Part shown: piece after piece, positions 23,786 to 24,249 of the stretch
Layout of the letters: each line of letters opens with the position of its first letter
Position numbering within the stretch: position 1 is the stretch's first letter
NCBI GenBank assembly: GCA_016795155.1
Contig: JAEUIE010000044.1
Span: forward strand, 252,224 to 289,765
DNA length: 37,542 bases
Reading direction: 5' to 3'
DNA from: Planctomycetia bacterium
GTDB taxonomy: Bacteria; Planctomycetota; Planctomycetia; Gemmatales; HRBIN36
Notes under the pieces: model-generated
What the model was told of the DNA's origin: nothing
The model's input: the letters and a program-made list of their open reading frames with translations, nothing else
Database searches by the model: none
Made by a program: the position numbers and the translations under genes

Positions 23786-24003
23786 GATGCACACCTTGCT
23801 TAAAGTGAAGCTCAGGTGATGATAAATACATGAAAACACAGATGCAAGTAAATTTTGATAATAACTGAAATCAGTAAAATATTCGCTCCTCAGCGTAATC
23901 CATTCCCAAGCTCCCTATGGGATTTCCGTTCTGATTTGGTAAATCAACTTCATGCTGAGAACAAGCACCACACAATAGCAAATTCGCAAATTGGGAGGCT
24001 GAC

Positions 24004-24249
24004 ATGAACGTTTCGATCACGTTCTGCATGATGTGAAATTACACGCCACAGGCCGTCAGTTTGGCGACCTCTTTACTAAATACCTACCGACAGAACATTC
24101 AACAACTGAAGTTGATACCCTCGGGAGGTGGAGTTTTTGAAGTTGAAGTCAATGGCATTCTGATTCATTCCAAGAAAGCTACTCGATCATTTCCCAATGA
24201 AAACGAGTTGTTTTCGGAGTTGAAGAAACAAGGATTCCAAGCTGCATAA
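24004..24249 (+). CDS. SelW/Rdx-family selenoprotein (in-frame UGA read as selenocysteine)
   Basis: Predicted thioredoxin-fold redox protein of the SelT/SelW/SelH (Rdx) family, 81 residues. GGGAGG lies five bases before the ATG at 24004. The frame reads MNVSITFCMM, then TGA at 24034-24036, then NYTPQAVSLATSLLNTY, then LIPSGGGVFEVEVNG, LIHSKKATRSFPNENEL, and stops at TAA 24247. In this family an N-terminal strand leads to C-x-x-C or C-x-x-U, then x-Y-x-P-x-A-x-x-L; the TGA falls exactly on the second redox position after Cys8, with the family pattern on both sides. A start after the TGA (TTG 24061) has no ribosome site and would remove the active site. Two weak stem-loops just after the TGA could serve as the SECIS. 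Alternatives are a nonsense mutation or a base error; the intact flanking frame argues against decay. No selA/B/C/D lies in the window. Confidence 0.85.
24044..24069 (+). promoter_or_regulatory. Candidate bacterial SECIS element in the SelW-like gene
   Basis: Directly after the TGA, CGCCA (24044-24048) can pair with TGGCG (24062-24066), with A24050-T24061 and G24051-T24060 adding to the stem and a loop starting with G about 16 bases after the TGA. An alternative fold pairs GGCC (24051-24054) with GG (24063-24064) and CC (24068-24069) around a GTCAGTTT loop. The position and a G at the loop start fit bacterial SECIS rules, but the stems are short, so this is tentative. Confidence 0.4.

Follow-up and report, generated by a model that had tools for sequence, protein, structure and literature searches.

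A small gene on the forward strand of the window (the whole stretch of 37,542 nucleotides of planctomycete DNA analysed here) almost certainly encodes a SelW-like selenoprotein, in which the UGA of codon 11 is read as selenocysteine (Sec) through SelB and a downstream hairpin. Sequence comparison establishes the reading frame, the family, the conservation of the UGA, selection on the hairpin and a complete decoding machinery in the genome. The main elements of the gene are the following.

23993 to 23998, plus strand: Shine-Dalgarno sequence GGGAGG, five bases 5' of the ATG (read directly).
24004 to 24249, plus strand: gene for an 81-residue SelW-like selenoprotein of the Rdx family; it has a single in-frame UGA and is matched by the Rdx profile.
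24025 to 24027, plus strand: TGC encoding Cys8, with which the C-x-x-U redox motif begins; of the 55 copies read, 54 have Cys here.
24034 to 24036, plus strand: TGA encoding Sec11, which takes the second redox position of C-x-x-U; the TGA falls in this column in each of the 46 TGA copies read.

The frame opens with ATG at 24004–24006, meets TGA at codon 11 and closes with TAA at 24247–24249. The initial annotation had proposed this combination of a GGGAGG site, an ATG and a TGA at codon 11 within C-x-x-U, and direct reading finds every element in place. With TGA translated as U, the product is MNVSITFCMMUNYTPQAVSLATSLLNTYRQNIQQLKLIPSGGGVFEVEVNGILIHSKKATRSFPNENELFSELKKQGFQAA. Pfam Rdx (PF10262) matches residues 2–74, on both sides of the TGA, with E=1.2e-21 and 77 bits (cut-off 22.6), and the product covers model positions 1–73 of 74. 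The TIGR02174 model (CXXU_selWTH) gives E=4e-18 and 65.5 bits (cut-off 34.2). The family match of the 81-residue product is far beyond chance, and the Rdx-family body that had been claimed past the TGA is borne out by a Pfam match that spans it. The strings LIPSGGGVFEVEVNG and SKKAT, put forward as marks of the family, do lie in conserved regions, but they are the protein's own letters and not invariant signatures. Against NF041051, a Campylobacter-type equivalog model, the product scores 84 bits, below the cut-off of 88, and we do not claim membership.

The in-frame TGA recurs among relatives. A sample of 392 genomes of the phylum was searched for the SelW-like gene and gave 148 matches in 139 genomes; an in-frame TGA is found in 139 of the 148 matches and none in the remaining nine. 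The best 30 relatives in this sample share 41–54% identity with the window's gene. Fifty-five copies, including that of the window, were examined base by base. TGA stands at exactly the Sec11 column in 46 of them, while the other nine have Cys (four), Gly (four) or Ala (one), so that the alignment places Sec or Cys at this position in most copies, as had been anticipated. Five of the 46 TGA copies are records of Chloroflexota (Herpetosiphonaceae, Anaerolineae) and Armatimonadota (Chthonomonadaceae).

These counts bear on the reading of the gene as a Cys-type Rdx gene whose TGA arose by nonsense mutation or is a TGC read in error. Cys-type homologues do exist (L058, L059, L062 and L065), and a single substitution turns TGC into TGA. 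However, sequencing error is not a sensible explanation because TGA recurs at the Sec11 column in 45 further copies; the rest of the gene is intact, the genome holds the full Sec machinery, and the SECIS hairpin described below is kept against synonymous drift. The conserved TGA and the SECIS refute a pseudogene or an error for practical purposes, and we consider either very improbable.

Some copies have a changed redox centre. Four Rdx paralogues (L060, L061, L063 and L064, in genomes G133, G148, G349 and G320) have Gly (GGC or GGA) at the Sec position and keep the first Cys; each has I-F-Y-H near its C-terminus, and the host genome of each also has a TGA copy. TGA to GGA is a single base change. 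In L066 (G064) the two redox positions are taken by Ser and Ala. The Gly- and Ala-type copies look like duplicates that subsequently lost the second redox residue. In three matches with two TGAs (G266, G315 and G054) a U-x-x-U motif was considered and rejected, as the second TGA lies outside the motif, at or near the C-terminal end like a terminal stop.

The machinery for Sec decoding is present in the window's own assembly (5.28 Mb, 97% complete). The tRNA-Sec scores 70.7 bits against a gathering score of 47, and ARAGORN reads its anticodon as TCA. SelA (E=3e-141) and SelB (636 residues, E=4e-120) are encoded by adjoining genes, and SelD is found with E=3.5e-109 (L014, C12:77743-78672, minus strand). 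The genome search suggested in the initial annotation for selA, selB, selD and tRNA-Sec has therefore recovered all four. The SelD gene itself carries an in-frame TGA, in the context ASCAGUAGK, which we take to be the active-site position.

Carriage of the SelW-like gene follows SelB. Within the organism's own class, SelB (scored as carried only when far above the EF-Tu background) is present in 6 of 6 SelW carriers versus 1 of 34 non-carriers (p=1.8e-6). Across the whole phylum sample, judged by eye with a border at E ~1e-70, the figures are about 127 of 139 carriers versus 108 of 253 non-carriers. Among the exceptions are several genomes whose assemblies are incomplete or fragmented, and one, G004, whose gene is Cys-type. 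In the class, only one sampled genome, G377, lacks a SelW-like gene yet has a SelB-like score.

Bacterial SECIS elements are hairpins just 3' of the UGA, with a small apical loop and a conserved G (PMC1088965). The SelW-like gene agrees with this description in position, in loop size and in the conserved G.

24050 to 24070, plus strand: bacterial SECIS hairpin, AGGCCGUCA-GUU-UGGCGACCU; minimum-energy fold, with its register kept in relatives.
24059 to 24061, plus strand: apical loop GUU, G first, 22 bases after the UGA.

The hairpin begins 13 bases 3' of the UGA, and its stem carries one C·A mismatch (24053 with 24067). All 46 TGA copies have a G as the first or second base of the loop. The hairpin of the window sequence by itself is not unusually stable (z about -0.4 to -0.5), and because a single hairpin is not significant alone, the relatives were used for the test. 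Pairing at the fixed register is found in 72.5% of cells in the relatives, compared with 23–48% when the partners are slid. Compensatory changes occur, such as C-G to G-C at columns 21/33, and covariation in the alignment is 0.208 versus 0.142 for shuffles. In 85% of copies at least five of the six core pairs are retained and the loop has G as its first or second base, against 24% (sd 5%) in synonymously recoded sets. None of 1000 recoded sets reached the observed 85%, a result that treats relatives as independent and is thus support, not a true probability. When hairpins were searched for freely, the comparison with synonymous recoding gave only a weak signal on average (mean z -0.87; 13 of 46 in the best tenth) because the recoded control could place its hairpin anywhere; with the register fixed, the outcome is clear. 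At the level of aligned sequences, these comparisons demonstrate nucleotide-level selection on the predicted hairpin. The bSECIS sought downstream of the TGA is present at 24050–24070, in a register conserved among relatives.

A second alternative is that the real gene is the shorter frame after the TGA, without a redox centre.

24061 to 24249, plus strand: TTG-started ORF of 62 residues with the active site lost, as a standard caller would give it (mechanical table 11 ORF call).

This is the sole frame of at least 60 residues that the table 11 caller gives here, as foreseen in the prediction that standard calling would lose the active site, and a Thermomicrobium roseum relative (L081) is annotated likewise: its TGA lies at 625–627 and the annotated 'Rdx family protein' starts at 655, after the TGA. 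However, the shorter frame would cut the Rdx domain, would give the good ribosome site at 23993 only ten codons to serve, and would leave unexplained both the SECIS and the conserved upstream pattern I-x-Y/F-C-x-x-U-N-Y-x-P-x-A. There is very little chance that it is the true gene. The expected mis-annotation of relatives thus holds for T. roseum, the one homologue tested cleanly, though this is a distant relative and not a close one as had been supposed. Annotation can still truncate such selenoprotein genes. That the UGA is read as another amino acid, by Trp recoding or a suppressor, has nothing specific in its favour and is the least probable reading, as the window's frames and selA/selB terminate as usual under table 11, the genome has tRNA-Sec and SelB, and some homologues have Cys in the TGA column.

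SelW-like matches were also found in a plasmid collection, all below 60% identity. A large plasmid of Cytobacillus spongiae (NZ_CP089998.1, L080) carries a SelW-like TGA gene directly beside selD and near selA; no gene is listed there, in a gene table that is incomplete. This arrangement suggests that the SelW gene can be transferred along with Sec decoding.

With Sec insertion at codon 11 as the preferred reading, ribosomes would start at 24004. When they reach the UGA, SelB with GTP and Sec-tRNA(Sec) would bind the hairpin at 24050–24070 and recognize its apical loop, as is established for the bacterial Sec system. Sec would be inserted at codon 11 and translation would go on to 24247, and without selenium it would end after ten residues. 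The 81-residue product is predicted to adopt a thioredoxin-like Rdx fold with Cys8 and Sec11 as the C-x-x-U pair. It is most likely a small thiol/selenol oxidoreductase, in which the selenol of Sec11 would attack the substrate and Cys8 would resolve the selenenyl-sulphide. We infer readthrough, this redox chemistry, a substrate that may be glutathione or protein disulphides, and an antioxidant role. The function of SelW-like proteins is probably redox, and glutathione is a reported partner (PMC1088965).

Compared with the bacterial SelW-like selenoproteins (TIGR02174, PF10262), the window gene has the same N-terminal C-x-x-U, length, Rdx domain and bSECIS directly after the UGA, and no difference was found beyond sequence divergence. 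Bacterial Rdx structures (2fa8, 2obk, 2oka and 2p0g) share the domain, with E down to 2.3e-11; in the alignment, 2fa8 has CxxC where the window protein has CxxU. Mammalian selenoprotein W (PDB 2npb) belongs to the same Rdx fold family and has CxxU, with a weak match (E=0.044). Its SECIS, as in eukaryotes generally, is located in the 3' untranslated region, whereas that of the window gene is inside the coding sequence, 3' of the UGA. SelW-like selenoproteins led all families in abundance both in the Sargasso Sea survey (PMC1088965) and, with 427 genes, in the ocean GOS survey (PMC2398784). The family occurs in several bacterial phyla (PMC1794560), and planctomycetes with full Sec systems and selenoproteins were described earlier (PMC4807772). 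Within a family of bacterial selenoproteins known from the literature since 2005, the gene is an ordinary member. Novelty is limited to its context, namely seven further candidate selenoprotein genes in a class mostly without the system.

Contig C62: candidate L086.
Contig C22: candidates L087 and L090.
Contig C5: candidate L088.
Contig C55: candidate L089.
Contig C29: candidate L091.
Contig C19: candidate L092.

The genome has 23 AhpC-TSA matches, six of which have one in-frame TGA, all in U-x-x-C motifs. Four of the six are TlpA-like candidates (L086, L087, L088 and L090) that fit WGxWU(G/P)PC, with one WGFWUPPC, one WGFWUGPC and two WGHWUGPC among them, and they share an almost identical SECIS-like hairpin after the UGA, CACGAGCGGUCGCUUGUG (CACGAGCGGTCGCTTGTG). 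The two others are thioredoxin/peroxiredoxin-like UxxC candidates with FGUINC and LMUILC. The seventh gene is a CMD-family candidate with C-F-Y-U, a C-x-x-U motif. A TlpA-like candidate at C5:92028 sits 1.5 kb from the tRNA-Sec gene at C5:90415. A search of this genome for formate dehydrogenase as a further selenoprotein gave neither a match above the cut-off nor an in-frame TGA. Together with SelW and SelD the candidate selenoprotein genes number nine, from the few families searched. We suggest only tentatively that this is a selenoprotein-rich lineage in a class whose sampled members are mostly without a Sec system, which might reflect an undescribed clade-specific expansion of Sec-based redox proteins, or their acquisition followed by duplication.

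The recoded gene was correctly read from raw sequence, and with it the SelW-like selenoproteins gain a clean example whose SECIS is well supported. Of broader interest is the selenoprotein repertoire of the genome, in a class with few SelB carriers among its sampled members.
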